Below are positions 2,488 through 27,390 of a stretch of DNA of 33,599 nt, one piece after another. The notes beneath the pieces were generated by a model. That model was not told where the DNA came from. It ran no database searches and worked only from the letters and a program-made list of their open reading frames with translations. Both the position numbers and the translations under genes were made by a program. Positions within the stretch are counted from its first letter, which is position 1. Every line of letters begins with the position of its first letter. The DNA is from Flavobacteriales bacterium (GTDB lineage Bacteria; Bacteroidota; Bacteroidia; Flavobacteriales_D; Sanyastnellaceae): assembly GCA_023264155.1 (NCBI GenBank), contig JALQTD010000008.1, positions 1-33,599 of the forward strand. The letters are read 5' to 3'.

Positions 2488-5022
2488 ATGCGCGCAATCG
2501 CTCTCCTCCTTGCGGTGTTGATGACCGCTACCTTTTCACATGAAGCCCATGCCCAGCGCCGCAAGCGAAACGAGGGCAAGACGGAACAAGCCCCTAAAGG
2601 GAAGGGCAAGAACGATGTGAAAACCATGGAGGAGGTGGTCGCCTCTGCGGAGGAGTTTGCCGGGTTGCTCACACTCTACCGGGATACGGTGACCGGTGAG
2701 GCCTATGTGCTCATCCCGGATTCCATGCTGGAGCGCGAGCTGATTTACTTTTCCCAAATCACGGACGGAGTGGCCGAAGCCGGCATGACCCGGGGAAGCT
2801 ACCGGGGCTCCAAGGTCATCACGCTGCACCGGCATTACGACCGCATTGAAGTGCACGCGGAGAACACCGGCTACTATTTCGATCCGGAATCGCCCCTGAG
2901 CCGGGCGGCACAAGCGAATTTGAACACCCCGGTTTTGGCCAGCGTGAAAATCACCGCCCAAGACAGCCTGCGCGGCTACCTCGTCAGCGGCGACGAGCTT
3001 TTCCTGACGGAGGACATGCAGATGGTGAAGCCGCCGAGCCGCGGGAAGGATGTGCTCGGCAAGTTGAACAAGGAGAAAACGAAGATTGGCCAAATCGACA
3101 ACTACCCCGCCAACACCGAGATCGCCGTGGAATACGTGTACGACAACCCCAAACCAGCGGCCGGGGGCAGCGCCGTAGTGGACGGGCGCGTCATCACCAT
3201 CGGCGTGCGGCACGCCCTCATCGAAGCCCCTGCTCCGGGGTTTGAACCGCGGCGCGATGACGAGCGGGTGGGCTACTTCACCACCCGGGTGGAAGACATG
3301 ACGACCGATGCGCCCTTTCCTTGGGCCGATGTCATCCACCGGTGGCGGCTCGAGAAAACGGACCCCGATGCGCCGGTGTCGGACGTGGTCGAGCCGATTG
3401 TTTGGTGGATGGAAAACACGACCCCGATGGAATACCGGGAGTACATCCGCACGGGGGTTGAGAAGTGGAACCAAGCGTTCGAGGCCATCGGCTTTCGCAA
3501 CGCCGTGGAAGTGCGGATGCAGCCGGACACTGCGACTTGGGACGCCGGGGACATCCGGTACAATGTGCTGCGGTGGACCTCCTCACCCAGGCCACAGTAT
3601 TCGGGGTACGGCCCGAGTTTCGTCAACCCCCGAACGGGCGAAATCATGGGCGCCGACATCATGCTCGAATGGGGCGGCATGGTGGGCCGCCTGTGGCGCG
3701 CAGAGGTCTTTGAATCGGCGGGCATGATGGACCATTCCGCGCGGGAATCCTTTGCAGAGTGGATGCACCGGTGCGACGCCGGAGCCGTGCAGAGCCAACA
3801 AACCCTGCTCGGGGCGGCCGTCATGCGGGCAGCGGGATTGACCGATGAGTTGAAAGAGCAGTTCACCCGCGAAACGCTGCACCGTTTGGTCTTGCACGAA
3901 GTCGGCCACACCTTGGGATTGAGCCACAACATGGCCGGCACGACCCTGCACACCTTCGATGAATTGATGGACCCGGAAGTCGTGCGCGCCTCAGGCCTGA
4001 GCAACAGCGTCATGGATTACCCCGCCATCCACTTCACGGGGGACCCGGCCACGCACTCCAAATTTTACGACGATGCGCCCGGTCCTTATGACCTGTGGGC
4101 CATCGCCTACGGGTACTCGCCGGACGCAGAAGGACTCGATGCCCTGCTCGCACGTTCGACCGACCCCACGTTGCGCTTCGGGAACGACGCCGACGACATG
4201 CGCCGGCCCGGTGGGGGGATGAACCCGGATGTGAACATTTACGACTTGTCGAGTGACCCGGTGGCCTACGCCGCGGCCCGGTGCGACTTGGTGGCGCGCA
4301 TTTTGCCCACTTTGCCGGCGACGTATGCCGGGGAAGGCGCTGAAAACCATGCAGAAGTGCGGAAGGCATTTTTGACTTTGACAGCAGAATACGCCACGCA
4401 ATTGGGCATCATGACACGCCAAATCGGGGGCATCCGTTACCACCGCGCCCGACCGGATCAGCTCGACGGCGCCCCCCTGCAACCGGTGGCACGGGAGGAC
4501 CAAGAAGCCGCCCTGTCCGCCTTGCGGACCTACGCATTCGGTCCGGAAGCGTTCAGCGCAGAAGCGGAGGTGTACGCCTACCTGCAGGATCAGCGGCGCG
4601 GCTTCGGATATTTCGGAGCGCCCGAAGACCCGAAAATCCACGCACGCGCGCTGACGGCGCAAAAGCGGGCCCTCGATCACTTGCTGCACCCGCGGGTGTT
4701 GCAGCGGATGATTGATGCCGCGGCGTATGGCAATGAATACGCTTTGGACCGCTACCTCGACGACTTGAAAGCCGCCATCTTCGAAGACGATTTAAATGGT
4801 TCTGTGAATACCTTCCGTCAACAGCTGCAAAGCGAATTCACGCGGCGGTTGATTGCCGTTTACGAAGATGAAAAGCGCTACGACCCCATTGCTCGGGCGC
4901 AGGCGTTTTACGTGCTGACTCAACTGAAGCGCGAACTCCTCAGCGCACCGCGGGCGGATGGCATGACCACCGCGCACCGAGCGCATGTCGTGCATTTGAT
5001 TGAGCGGAGCTTGACTCCGTGA
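2488..5022 (+). CDS. Secreted zinc-dependent metalloprotease (DUF5117/DUF4953-type met-zincin)
   Basis: An 844-residue protein with signal peptide MRAIALLLAVLMTATFSHEAHAQ followed by a Lys/Glu-rich linker (residues 23-45). The catalytic zinc motif HEVGHTLGLSHN is at residues 470-481 (His470, Glu471, His474, His480), and the Met-turn SVMDYP contains Met509. The N-terminal ~45-250 region has the look of DUF5117, followed by the catalytic domain and an alpha-helical C-terminal region to residue 844. This architecture is common in Bacteroidota exported peptidases, usually annotated zinc-dependent metalloprotease. Localisation is periplasmic or extracellular; I see no T9SS tail. ATG 2488 was chosen because it begins the signal peptide directly. 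The gene appears monocistronic. The natural substrate is unknown. Confidence 0.9.
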   Translation: MRAIALLLAVLMTATFSHEAHAQRRKRNEGKTEQAPKGKGKNDVKTMEEVVASAEEFAGLLTLYRDTVTGEAYVLIPDSMLERELIYFSQITDGVAEAGMTRGSYRGSKVITLHRHYDRIEVHAENTGYYFDPESPLSRAAQANLNTPVLASVKITAQDSLRGYLVSGDELFLTEDMQMVKPPSRGKDVLGKLNKEKTKIGQIDNYPANTEIAVEYVYDNPKPAAGGSAVVDGRVITIGVRHALIEAPAPGFEPRRDDERVGYFTTRVEDMTTDAPFPWADVIHRWRLEKTDPDAPVSDVVEPIVWWMENTTPMEYREYIRTGVEKWNQAFEAIGFRNAVEVRMQPDTATWDAGDIRYNVLRWTSSPRPQYSGYGPSFVNPRTGEIMGADIMLEWGGMVGRLWRAEVFESAGMMDHSARESFAEWMHRCDAGAVQSQQTLLGAAVMRAAGLTDELKEQFTRETLHRLVLHEVGHTLGLSHNMAGTTLHTFDELMDPEVVRASGLSNSVMDYPAIHFTGDPATHSKFYDDAPGPYDLWAIAYGYSPDAEGLDALLARSTDPTLRFGNDADDMRRPGGGMNPDVNIYDLSSDPVAYAAARCDLVARILPTLPATYAGEGAENHAEVRKAFLTLTAEYATQLGIMTRQIGGIRYHRARPDQLDGAPLQPVAREDQEAALSALRTYAFGPEAFSAEAEVYAYLQDQRRGFGYFGAPEDPKIHARALTAQKRALDHLLHPRVLQRMIDAAAYGNEYALDRYLDDLKAAIFEDDLNGSVNTFRQQLQSEFTRRLIAVYEDEKRYDPIARAQAFYVLTQLKRELLSAPRADGMTTAHRAHVVHLIERSLTP

Positions 5023-5062
5023 TGCCACAGCAGTCACCGGATGGGTGATTCCCGAGGTTGCG

Positions 5063-5102
5063 ATAAAAAGAATGGAGCGTCGGCCGTTGCCAACACTCCA
5101 TT
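5063..5102 (-). terminator. Rho-independent terminator of the small RNA
   Basis: The minus-strand stem AATGGAGTGTTGGC / GCCGACGCTCCATT has 14 bp including two G-U pairs and the loop AACG. It is followed by CTTTTTAT. It is the only convincing intrinsic terminator I found in the window. Confidence 0.7.
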
Positions 5103-5151
5103 ACGATTCACAACTAGGTCCTCCATGAACTCGCGTTCACTGACCCAGTTG
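5063..5151 (-). ncRNA. Candidate structured small RNA on the minus strand
   Basis: Read on the minus strand, CAACTGGGTC (5151-5142) pairs with GACCTAGTTG (5120-5111) over 10 bp. It encloses the hairpin GTGAAC-GCGA-GTTCAT, which has a GNRA tetraloop. A second hairpin, 14 bp with an AACG loop (5102-5071), is followed by C-TTTTT-AT. All four non-Watson-Crick positions in the three stems are G-U pairs on the minus strand and would be A-C mismatches on the plus strand, so the RNA should be read from the minus strand. A -7-like element TACATTCG lies directly upstream (5152-5159). By the local 12-nt rule it would start the RNA near 5147, leaving a 6-bp closing stem; the alternative TATATTTC (5180-5187) would start it near 5175. 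No minus-strand gene follows, so it looks like a free-standing sRNA of about 80-110 nt. I do not recognise the family. Confidence 0.6.
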
Positions 5152-5159
5152 CGAATGTA
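5152..5159 (-). promoter_or_regulatory. -7-like element (TACATTCG) upstream of the small RNA
   Basis: TACATTCG fits the TAnnTTCG form used at several gene starts in this window. It abuts the 5' arm of the structured RNA. A second possible element, TATATTTC, lies at 5180-5187 on the same strand. Confidence 0.4.
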
Positions 5160-5293
5160 AGCCATATTCCAACCGAACAGAAATATAATTCGACAAAACG
5201 AGTTATTATTTAGCTGACTGATTACTCAATCAAAACACCATGAACCTGTTAGCAACCCCCGCACGTTCAGCGGCAGGGCAATGGGCTTCGCTA
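5160..5293 (+). other. AT-rich non-coding stretch between the small RNA and the LysM operon
   Basis: This stretch is visibly richer in A and T than its surroundings. I see no supported ORF in it. It should contain the upstream promoter regions of both the minus-strand RNA and the plus-strand LysM operon. Confidence 0.5.
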
Positions 5294-5301
5294 TAAATTT
5301 G
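5294..5301 (+). promoter_or_regulatory. -7 promoter element (TAAATTTG) of the LysM/SGNH/MBOAT operon
   Basis: TAAATTTG is an exact match to TAnnTTTG. Its first T is 12 nt before the ATG at 5306, leaving only GCAC between the element and the start codon, so the mRNA is predicted to be leaderless. Confidence 0.75.
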
Positions 5302-5305
5302 GCAC

Positions 5306-6661
5306 ATGCAGTCCTTGTTCACCCGTACGGCACGCATCAACGGCCTCGTCGGTGCCCTCGCCGTCGGACTGTCCCTCGTCACTTCGGCCCAGCCCGATTT
5401 AAAGCGGTGGGTGCAATTGATCGATGACCGAAGCACCTTCCCGGACTTCGTGGCATTTCAGCAAGCACATCCGGAGGCTTTCGAAGCACATGCGGTGCCG
5501 CATTTGGCCCAAGAAATAGCAGCATTCGATGCCTTGGAGGAAGCGCTCCTCGCGTGGGAGCATGACCCTGAGCTTGAGGACCGGACCGTGCAGGCGCTCC
5601 TTGGAGAAGGCATGCGCCGGTGGCAGGTGTTGTGCGTCCTTGCCGATTTGTATATGCCGGAGCTTGCGCCGCAGGTGGAGGCCGCTGGGCTCGCGCCTTC
5701 ATTCGCTTGGCTGCCCGCGATGTTGACCGGGTTCGACTTTGCGTACGAAGGGCCGGGGGACCGGGCGGGGTTGTGGGCATTGGATTGGCCCTTGGCCCAA
5801 ATCCTGTTGGACACCTCCAACCCCGGCATCGATGAGCGGATGTTCGTGGTCCCCTGTACCGAAGCTGCCGTGACCCAACTCGCCGCCCTGAGCGAGCGGT
5901 TCCCCGGTGACCCGTTGCGCGTGTTGGTGGCGTACGCAAAGGGGGCCGGGTACGCCAACAACTGGGGCGGGCGGCCGGGCGAGGATGCGCGGCTGGACGA
6001 ATGGTTGACGCTGTACCGCGTGGTCGCTCGGTTGTGGGAGAACTTGGAACGCGAGCGGCAAACCGTGGAGTGGCTGGCCGATTTTTCAGCTTGGGAACCG
6101 GTGCCTTGCCCCGGCCCGGTGGACCGCGTGGCGCTCGTGGAATGGGCGGGGTTCGATCGCCGGGCGCAGCGGACGTACTTGCCTTGGTGGACCAATGGGG
6201 CAATCGATTGCGCGGCTTGGGAGGCGGTGGGGGTGAAGATGCCGCGGGATTTGGCCCGTCAACTCGCGGAAGTCGACTGGAGCAACTGGACCCCGCACAG
6301 CTTCGGAGATTACAGCCAATCGAGCACCATCGACCACCGGGTGGGAAGCGGCGAAGTGCTCGGCATCATCGCACGGAAATACGGGGTGACGGTCAGCGAA
6401 ATCAAAGCATGGAATGGCCTGACGAACGACCTCATCCGCATCGGACAAGTGCTGGAAATCCGCGGGGTGTTGAGCACTTCCGACGCCTCCCCCTCGCCGT
6501 CTGAAGCGTCACGTTACATCGTGCACACCGTGGCGGCTGGCGAAACCCTCTGGTCCATCAGCCAACGCTATCCAGGTACAACGGTGGACGACTTGATCCG
6601 CCTGAACCCGCAAGCCGAACCCCTGCAGGCGGGCGCCACCCTGCGCATTCCCCAACGATGA
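5306..6661 (+). CDS. LysM protein with a degenerate lytic-transglycosylase (SLT) domain
   Basis: A 451-residue protein with signal peptide or anchor MQSLFTRTARINGLVGALAVGLSLVTSAQ. Residues about 105-220 follow the MltD-type SLT fold: FAWLPAMLTGFDFAY, GLWALDWPLAQILLD, DERMF, CTEAAVTQLAALSERFPGDPLRVLVAYAKGAGY. These parallel the family's LPxxES.F, GLWQ, DER, ST.AA and LA.AYN.G motifs. The catalytic Glu of the ES motif appears to be replaced by Leu140 (MLTGF), so the domain is probably catalytically dead. Two LysM repeats (about 344-387 and 405-448) should bind peptidoglycan. It is the first gene of an operon and overlaps the next by ATGA. Likely role: a peptidoglycan-binding scaffold or targeting subunit for the SGNH and MBOAT proteins that follow. 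The fold call is by eye. Confidence 0.8.
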   Translation: MQSLFTRTARINGLVGALAVGLSLVTSAQPDLKRWVQLIDDRSTFPDFVAFQQAHPEAFEAHAVPHLAQEIAAFDALEEALLAWEHDPELEDRTVQALLGEGMRRWQVLCVLADLYMPELAPQVEAAGLAPSFAWLPAMLTGFDFAYEGPGDRAGLWALDWPLAQILLDTSNPGIDERMFVVPCTEAAVTQLAALSERFPGDPLRVLVAYAKGAGYANNWGGRPGEDARLDEWLTLYRVVARLWENLERERQTVEWLADFSAWEPVPCPGPVDRVALVEWAGFDRRAQRTYLPWWTNGAIDCAAWEAVGVKMPRDLARQLAEVDWSNWTPHSFGDYSQSSTIDHRVGSGEVLGIIARKYGVTVSEIKAWNGLTNDLIRIGQVLEIRGVLSTSDASPSPSEASRYIVHTVAAGETLWSISQRYPGTTVDDLIRLNPQAEPLQAGATLRIPQR

Positions 6662-26931: not shown

Positions 26932-27390
26932 CTACTCGGCGTCGGTCGTTTCCGTGCGCAATTCGGGACCGAATGCATCGATTTCGTGGCCGAGGCGCTG
27001 TTCGTACCAAGAATCCAAGACCCACGATTTAGCGACTTGCGGATTGCGGAACACCCTGAACGAAATGGCGGGGCGGAACAAGGCCCAACGGATGCGGTCG
27101 CGCAAAACTTGAATCGAAGACGGGACCACCACCGCTCGCGAAGGAACCCCGCGCATGGCCTCGTCCGAACTCATCCACACCAAGGCCTCCTGGTCGACCA
27201 AGGCGATGCTCGAAGGAATCAAGACGAGCACGGGATTGTCTGCATCGGGCAGCAAGTCGCGTCGCGCAGCCTCCACGCGTTTGGCTTGGGCCAAATCAAG
27301 CACGACGTCCGGCCGAAACCGGACCACAAACAAGCCCATCGACAACTCGATGGTCGCCGCAGGCAACTGGATTTGTAGGGTGGGTTGCAT
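26932..27390 (-). CDS. Small STAS/SEC14-like (DUF7793-type) protein
   Basis: A 152-residue cytoplasmic protein without signal peptide. The pattern IELSMGLFVVRFRPDVVLDLAQAKRVEAARRDLLPDADNPVLVLIPSSI, then MRGVPSRAVVVPSSIQVLRDRIRWALFRPAISFRVFRNPQVAKSWV, resembles small STAS-fold proteins of Bacteroidota: a strand, an acidic helix, a hydrophobic strand, an Ala-rich helix, then F..F.N...A..WL. The family call is by pattern memory and moderately sure. It starts 26 bp after the DUF4249-like lipoprotein gene with no promoter element seen, so the two may be co-transcribed. Function unknown. Confidence 0.6.
   Translation of the reverse strand: MQPTLQIQLPAATIELSMGLFVVRFRPDVVLDLAQAKRVEAARRDLLPDADNPVLVLIPSSIALVDQEALVWMSSDEAMRGVPSRAVVVPSSIQVLRDRIRWALFRPAISFRVFRNPQVAKSWVLDSWYEQRLGHEIDAFGPELRTETTDAE

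Follow-up and report, generated by a model that had tools for sequence, protein, structure and literature searches.

The locus and its predicted transcript

In the stretch of Flavobacteriales DNA analyzed here (the window; 33,599 nt), a first-pass annotation made from the letters alone had pointed to an uncharacterized structured small RNA with an intrinsic terminator on the minus strand, between two protein-coding genes. Is this element a gene in its own right, and what might its RNA act on? The features that we distinguish at the locus are listed below by their positions in the window.

2488..5022, plus strand: convergent flanking gene for a DUF4953/DUF5117 met-zincin (Pfam), outside the RNA
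5064..5148, minus strand: predicted sRNA transcript of ~80 to 85 nt, start ± 3 nt, placed by the distance to the −7 box, the start of the hairpin, and the U tail
5065..5070, minus strand: U-rich terminator tail CTTTTT, from the sequence and the terminator scan
5071..5102, minus strand: intrinsic terminator stem-loop with an invariant GC(AACG)GC apex, from covariation and the terminator scan
5102..5114, minus strand: invariant single-stranded seed GUUGUGAAUCGUA, 13 nt, from its identity across the family, its unpaired state in the folds, and its complementarity to a leader
5116..5146, minus strand: 5′ hairpin with a conserved 5-bp stem GGGUC/GACCU and an inner GAAC/GUUC stem, from folding every member singly
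5152..5159, minus strand: putative −7 promoter box of the TAnnTTTG type, TACATTCG, with the 5′ hairpin 5 nt downstream, from the sequence
5180..5183, minus strand: −33-like element, degenerate in the window (TTTC) and TTG in most relatives
5306..6661, plus strand: divergent flanking gene for a LysM/SLT transglycosylase protein (Pfam)

The minus strand from 5190 to 5050 folds at −59.6 kcal/mol, whereas dinucleotide shuffles give −36.0 ± 3.5 kcal/mol (z = −6.8; none of the 200 reached the real value), and the U tail and the G-U pairs suit this strand only, which bears out the initial description. The terminator (5102-5071) has 14 pairs, an AACG loop, and the CTTTTT tail. Our scan agrees with the annotation that it is the only strong intrinsic terminator in 33.6 kb; the other matches have 5 to 7 pairs each, and their number equals the shuffle expectation. 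Neither a tRNA nor a tmRNA was found at the locus. The −7-like box noticed at the 5′ edge is present (5159-5152) and kept in relatives, and its fixed distance there, together with a covarying terminator of the RNA's own, argues for the independent transcription unit that had been suspected. An RNA of ~80 nt would be transcribed from its own sigma-ABfr-type promoter on the minus strand, and the length predicted from the sequence signals fits the size anticipated by the annotation.

Family and distribution

The annotation had left open whether the element was a known motif, with flavo-1 as the first candidate, or new. It belongs to a previously undescribed sRNA family without an Rfam match: searches of the window and five relatives against Rfam 15 at the gathering threshold, including flavo-1, 6S, tmRNA, and SRP, gave 0 matches, and at a relaxed threshold (E up to 5) none was obtained for positions 4900-5400. 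The seed sequence was also not found printed in the literature searched.

When 100 relatives were searched at the DNA level, the element turned up in the sister genome as well as in other genera within the same bacterial family. Two models were used further, a covariance model (R1) and a later seed-plus-terminator model (R2). R1 matches the window at 5068-5146 with an E value of 4.6e-23, the window sequence being among those from which R1 was built. The sRNA-bearing genera are labeled g1 (the window's genus, with genomes G000 and G001), g3, g5, and g10, and a single locus is found in 2/2, 11/11, 21/22, and 15/17 of their genomes, respectively (49/52 in total); the misses in g5 and g10 are incomplete genomes. 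These four genera belong to one Flavobacteriales family of uncultured aquatic bacteria known from metagenome-assembled genomes (MAGs). Among 399 genomes of the order, the R1 and R2 searches gave no convincing match outside the four genera. Weak matches in g9, g14, and g16 and at another locus in g3 resemble ordinary terminators, and an AACG apex is seen in several of them. AACG appears to be a favored terminator tetraloop in these Flavobacteriales; several unrelated terminators of the bacterial family (L082, L083, L066, and L060-L062) have a GC-AACG-GC or C-AACG-G apex.

On a larger scale, 85,462 species genomes contain 50 stretches that match GTTGTGAATCGTAR-N7-14-GCAACGG exactly, and 49 of the 50 fit the family. 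Nearly all of the fitting matches come from MAGs titled Flavobacteriales, Bacteroidetes, or Bacteroidia, three of them Crocinitomicaceae. The remaining match, titled "Lysobacterales" (L120), lacks the structure and fits chance. The four carrier genera may form one clade, and the members, including the 15 target orthologs described below, are therefore not to be counted as independent events.

Two hairpins and an invariant open seed

Each distinct member, folded alone, forms two hairpins that leave the 13 invariant bases GUUGUGAAUCGUA between them unpaired. The seed is identical in all family members, and its accessibility in the folds is conserved along with its sequence. Compensatory changes in relatives, which had been named as the support to look for, are seen. 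Over the first 12 sequences, 7 of 22 pairs have changes on both sides, and the covariation score of 0.29 (0.19 ± 0.02 in shuffles) lies above all 500 shuffles and all slid controls. For the terminator alone, 7 of 13 pairs are changed on both sides, with a score of 0.51 against 0.29 ± 0.02, which was reached by 0 of 500 shuffles. The 5′ stem reads AGGUC/GACCU or GGGUC/GACCU in g1, g3, and g5 and GUGGUUGAC/GUCAACCAC in g10, where pairing is kept, and the loop of this hairpin varies freely in sequence.

It is at this hairpin that the first-pass annotation has to be revised. The 10-bp stem CAACUGGGUC/GACCUAGUUG with its inner GAAC-GCGA-GUUC hairpin is present in the window, but it is peculiar to the window's genome. 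The GNRA cap and the full stem are not defining features, since neither the outer 5 bp nor the GCGA loop is conserved; going outward, these outer pairs form in only 14, 10, 11, 22, and 5 of 30 members of this branch. The outer arm of the window's stem reaches into the region from the −7 box to the RNA start. Furthermore, GUUGUGAAUCGUA, which had been placed partly in a stem, is in fact unpaired and is the family's invariant core.

Of the distinct members, 45/45 have a TAnnTT −7 box 4 to 8 nt upstream of the hairpin, and 33/45 have TTG 15 to 27 nt upstream of that box, with fewer cases in g10, where a shorter stretch was examined. The published sigma-ABfr promoter has TAnnTTTG at −7 and TTTG near −33 (PMC7366714), and because the boxes of the sRNA fit it, we call its promoter sigma-ABfr-type. 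As judged from the sequences, the element is a free-standing gene with a promoter and a terminator of its own and with no common host gene.

A candidate target in the leader of an SprB-repeat protein

The mRNAs of an orthologous SprB-repeat surface protein secreted by the type IX system have a short leader that contains the seed complement (C)GATTCACAAC. The lead came from a search of eight genomes for 9-mers of the seed complement shortly before an ATG, which led to the start sites of secreted proteins that are related to each other across genera. In a genome-wide pattern search of this kind, chance matches of 9 to 10 nt are expected, and weight is therefore placed on conservation. Orthologs were then collected by protein search from one of these proteins, independently of the seed. 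Of the 15 leaders from sRNA-bearing genera obtained in this way, 12 were not among the matches to the seed pattern, which had returned just those of G003, G010, and G046. The 100% agreement inside GATTCAC stems from the search pattern, and thus the leaders of the seed-independent orthologs weigh more. The target proteins (one each from g1, g3, g10, and g5) carry SprB repeats and a Por_Secre_tail, the type IX C-terminal sorting domain, and four full-length orthologs are 802 to 818 aa long.

Sites of the GATTCAC(AAC) type occur in the ortholog leaders of all four carrier genera. Between a TATATT(TG) box and the ATG, the leaders of g3 and g10 contain CGATTCACAAC or close variants; those of g5 have GATTCAC followed, after a small bulge, by AACTA, pairing with UAGUU-GUGAAUC, and those of g1 have shorter forms of the site. 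Between genera, most of the flanking leader columns agree in only 20 to 60% of comparisons, showing that the flanks have diverged. C-to-T changes in g10 leaders retain a G-U pair, and g5 leaders retain pairing across the small bulge.

Complementarity to this unlinked mRNA is conserved where the sRNA is present: the median energy of the seed-leader duplex is −13.9 kcal/mol for the 15 orthologs from sRNA-bearing genera and −5.8 kcal/mol for 9 orthologs from genera without it, with no overlap (Mann-Whitney p = 3e-5). Likewise, the mean of the 15 real leaders (−13.4 kcal/mol) was reached by 0 of 2,000 shuffled seeds (mean, −6.1 kcal/mol). When full-length sRNAs are used, the best duplex includes the seed in 35/35 genomes, although many of these duplexes are, taken singly, no better than those with shuffled leaders. 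Several g5 sites have only 7 to 8 contiguous pairs before the bulge, and the weakest site is that of the window's own genome (AATTCAC; −8.7 kcal/mol; p = 0.07 against shuffled leaders).

Two observations on these leaders and proteins may be recorded here. In g19, where no sRNA was detected, the ortholog leader L384 contains TGAATCACTAACC (core GAATCAC), a single-base variant of the g5 site GATTCACTAAC. Moreover, sRNA-bearing genomes contain ~20 to 40 matches each to an N-terminal domain of secreted proteins with a T-T-Y-R-V-Y motif (e.g., L331-L360); Pfam gave no match for this domain, although SprB repeats and the type IX tail were identified in the proteins tested.

A model of translational control and its alternatives

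With a probability of roughly 0.7, we propose that the RNA is encoded in trans and acts by base pairing: it would bind the SprB-repeat protein mRNA at its leader, most likely blocking translation. The comparative evidence supports the RNA, its structure, its seed, and the predicted target site, whereas we infer that the RNA is transcribed, that it binds in the cell, and that its effect is to repress and not to activate. In our model, an sRNA made from a sigma-ABfr-type promoter (minus strand, 5148-5064) would end at its intrinsic terminator, and the terminator and the 5′ hairpin, the sequence of which is free to change, would flank the open invariant seed. The seed would pair with (C)GAUUCACAAC, ~15 to 25 nt before the start codon, in the leader of the mRNA for the ~800-aa SprB-repeat protein, and pairing would lower the amount of this type IX-exported, adhesin-like surface protein. 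A block of translation is the most likely outcome because the site is in the very region of Bacteroidota mRNAs on which ribosomes have to load. These mRNAs have no classical Shine-Dalgarno sites and are enriched in A at −3, −6, and −11 to −15 (cited in PMC7366714), and therefore, a duplex at the site should hinder ribosome loading. Repression would be preferred over activation or stabilization by roughly three to one.

The strongest competitor, which we consider improbable, accepts the small RNA as real but has its invariant stretch bind a protein or another RNA, in the manner of 6S or a protein-titrating RNA, the leader match then being a motif with another purpose or a coincidence. Indeed, 13 invariant bases and an invariant terminator apex are more than one target site of 7 to 11 bp needs, and the matched leader element directly follows the start site, a position that other elements can also occupy. 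However, that element is antisense, not sense, to the sRNA, so that a protein site common to both could be shared only as the reverse complement; orthologous leaders in genera without the sRNA lack the element; and the C-to-T changes in g10, which preserve G-U pairs, and the pairing across a bulge in g5 are also at odds with this explanation.

A cis-acting leader or attenuator of a downstream gene on the same strand is very unlikely. In g3 and g5, the gene of what we take from its sequence to be an SRPBCC-like protein does begin ~50 nt past the terminator on the same strand, but the gene that comes first in g10 is usually another one (presumably RNase H-like, again judged from the sequence) or unrelated, and the window and its sister genome have no close same-strand gene downstream. 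The downstream gene is thus not the same across members, although the neighborhood is otherwise syntenic across genera: the ortholog of the DUF4953 met-zincin lies ~0.6 to 1.2 kb downstream of the sRNA in relatives, and the LysM/SLT ortholog holds the equivalent position in g5. The strong terminator is, moreover, kept throughout, and the adjoining seed is unpaired and has no alternative stem. The annotation had concluded from the lack of a following gene that the element is not a leader; the conclusion holds, but relatives often have such a gene, and the argument now is that this gene differs between genera and is absent in the window's own genus.

A good terminator is certainly present, and it could in principle end transcription of the convergent protease gene, or of a transcript that arrives from upstream on the minus strand, and be nothing else. 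We regard this as still harder to maintain: the U tail and G-U pairs do not suit the plus strand, the upstream gene is divergent and, therefore, no gene reads into the terminator, and the terminator is accompanied by the invariant 13-nt stretch, the 5′ hairpin, and the promoter box. Least credible is a tiny coding gene, suggested by a GGAGG followed 8 nt later by GTG AAT CGT with ribosome-site-like spacing in g1, g5, and most g3 members, since in four g3 genomes the frame is shifted by a 1-nt insertion that leaves the stem intact, GGAGG is missing in these four genomes and in g10, there is no conserved stop, the third positions of the first codons are invariant, unlike in coding drift, and Bacteroidota mRNAs are devoid of classical Shine-Dalgarno sites (PMC7366714). 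As read from these sequence features, the element is a non-coding RNA.

Further candidate targets

For the base-pairing sRNA, the 13 invariant bases exceed what the SprB-repeat target needs, and other partners therefore probably exist. In g3, a gene that we take from its sequence to encode a STAS-domain-like (anti-sigma antagonist-like) protein starts right after ACGATTCACC or TACGATTCATC, which are complementary to the seed (L466, L467, and L254); TACGATTCACCATG and variants of it are found at this gene in three genomes, with some conservation. In g5, the leader of a gene whose sequence we read as mreB carries TATATTTGGGTGATTCAC, partly complementary to the seed, in four genomes (L464, L465, L469, and L470). 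It is a tentative and rather doubtful idea that the sRNA is the hub of a small cell-surface regulon comprising the SprB-repeat type IX cargo, the start of the STAS-domain regulator (g3), and the start of mreB (g5). Such a hub, if true, would tie the output of the surface adhesin to cell shape and to a switch of the anti-sigma type, and complementarity between seed and leaders would have been maintained from genus to genus.

Among 30 loci, the real 9-mer gave ~8 start-site matches, whereas a control 9-mer matched to it in dinucleotides gave 2, a suggestive difference that comes from a hand count of plausible genes; a reversed-pattern control looked depleted and was left out of the comparison. 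A search of 18 genomes with the 11-nt seed complements ACGATTCACAA returned only the sRNA itself in G000 and most g10 genomes, and no shared start-site gene. Start-site matches at genes for a C25 peptidase (G029), SppA (G001), PDH E2 (G010), and a TPR lipoprotein (G003) each occur in a single genome and are not claimed.

In both g1 genomes, ATTCACAAC and TTATTCACAA stand in tandem just after a glmS-like gene (G000 C46:4964-4984, L212; G001 C36:114207), possibly near the replication origin. As a target, this pair was rejected, as it reads as DnaA boxes. Separately, the start of a DUF7793 gene in the window (26932-27390, minus strand) is preceded by ATTCACAACC, and the same is seen in the sister genome (L236 and L237).

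Relation to known systems

Textbook control by sRNAs rests on Shine-Dalgarno sites, which Bacteroidota mRNAs lack, and to our knowledge, very few sRNAs of this phylum have a known seed or target. An invariant 13-nt seed with a phylogenetically matched target leader offers a directly testable case of sRNA control of a type IX-secreted surface protein, in aquatic bacteria known mainly from metagenomes. With flavo-1 and the other Bacteroidota motifs in Rfam, the RNA shares the character of a structured non-coding RNA of the phylum, although none of them in Rfam 15 matches it.

Closer in presumed function is Rfp18 of Flavobacterium psychrophilum, a conserved structured sRNA with predicted pairing to the mRNAs of secreted proteases and a secreted adhesin; its deletion lowers two protease mRNAs, and pairing proceeds through its third stem-loop (PMC9723704). 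Both are conserved structured sRNAs of the same order with predicted secreted-protein targets. Compared by description, however, our RNA consists of two hairpins with an open seed between them, and R2 gave no convincing match in the order sample outside the four genera, which argues weakly against homology. GibS of Bacteroides thetaiotaomicron represses its targets by pairing at translation initiation regions (PMC7366714) and is, like the RNA proposed here, a trans-encoded base-pairing sRNA. It differs in its seed, which is a long open 5′ portion, in its metabolic targets, and in genus, sequence, and structure.
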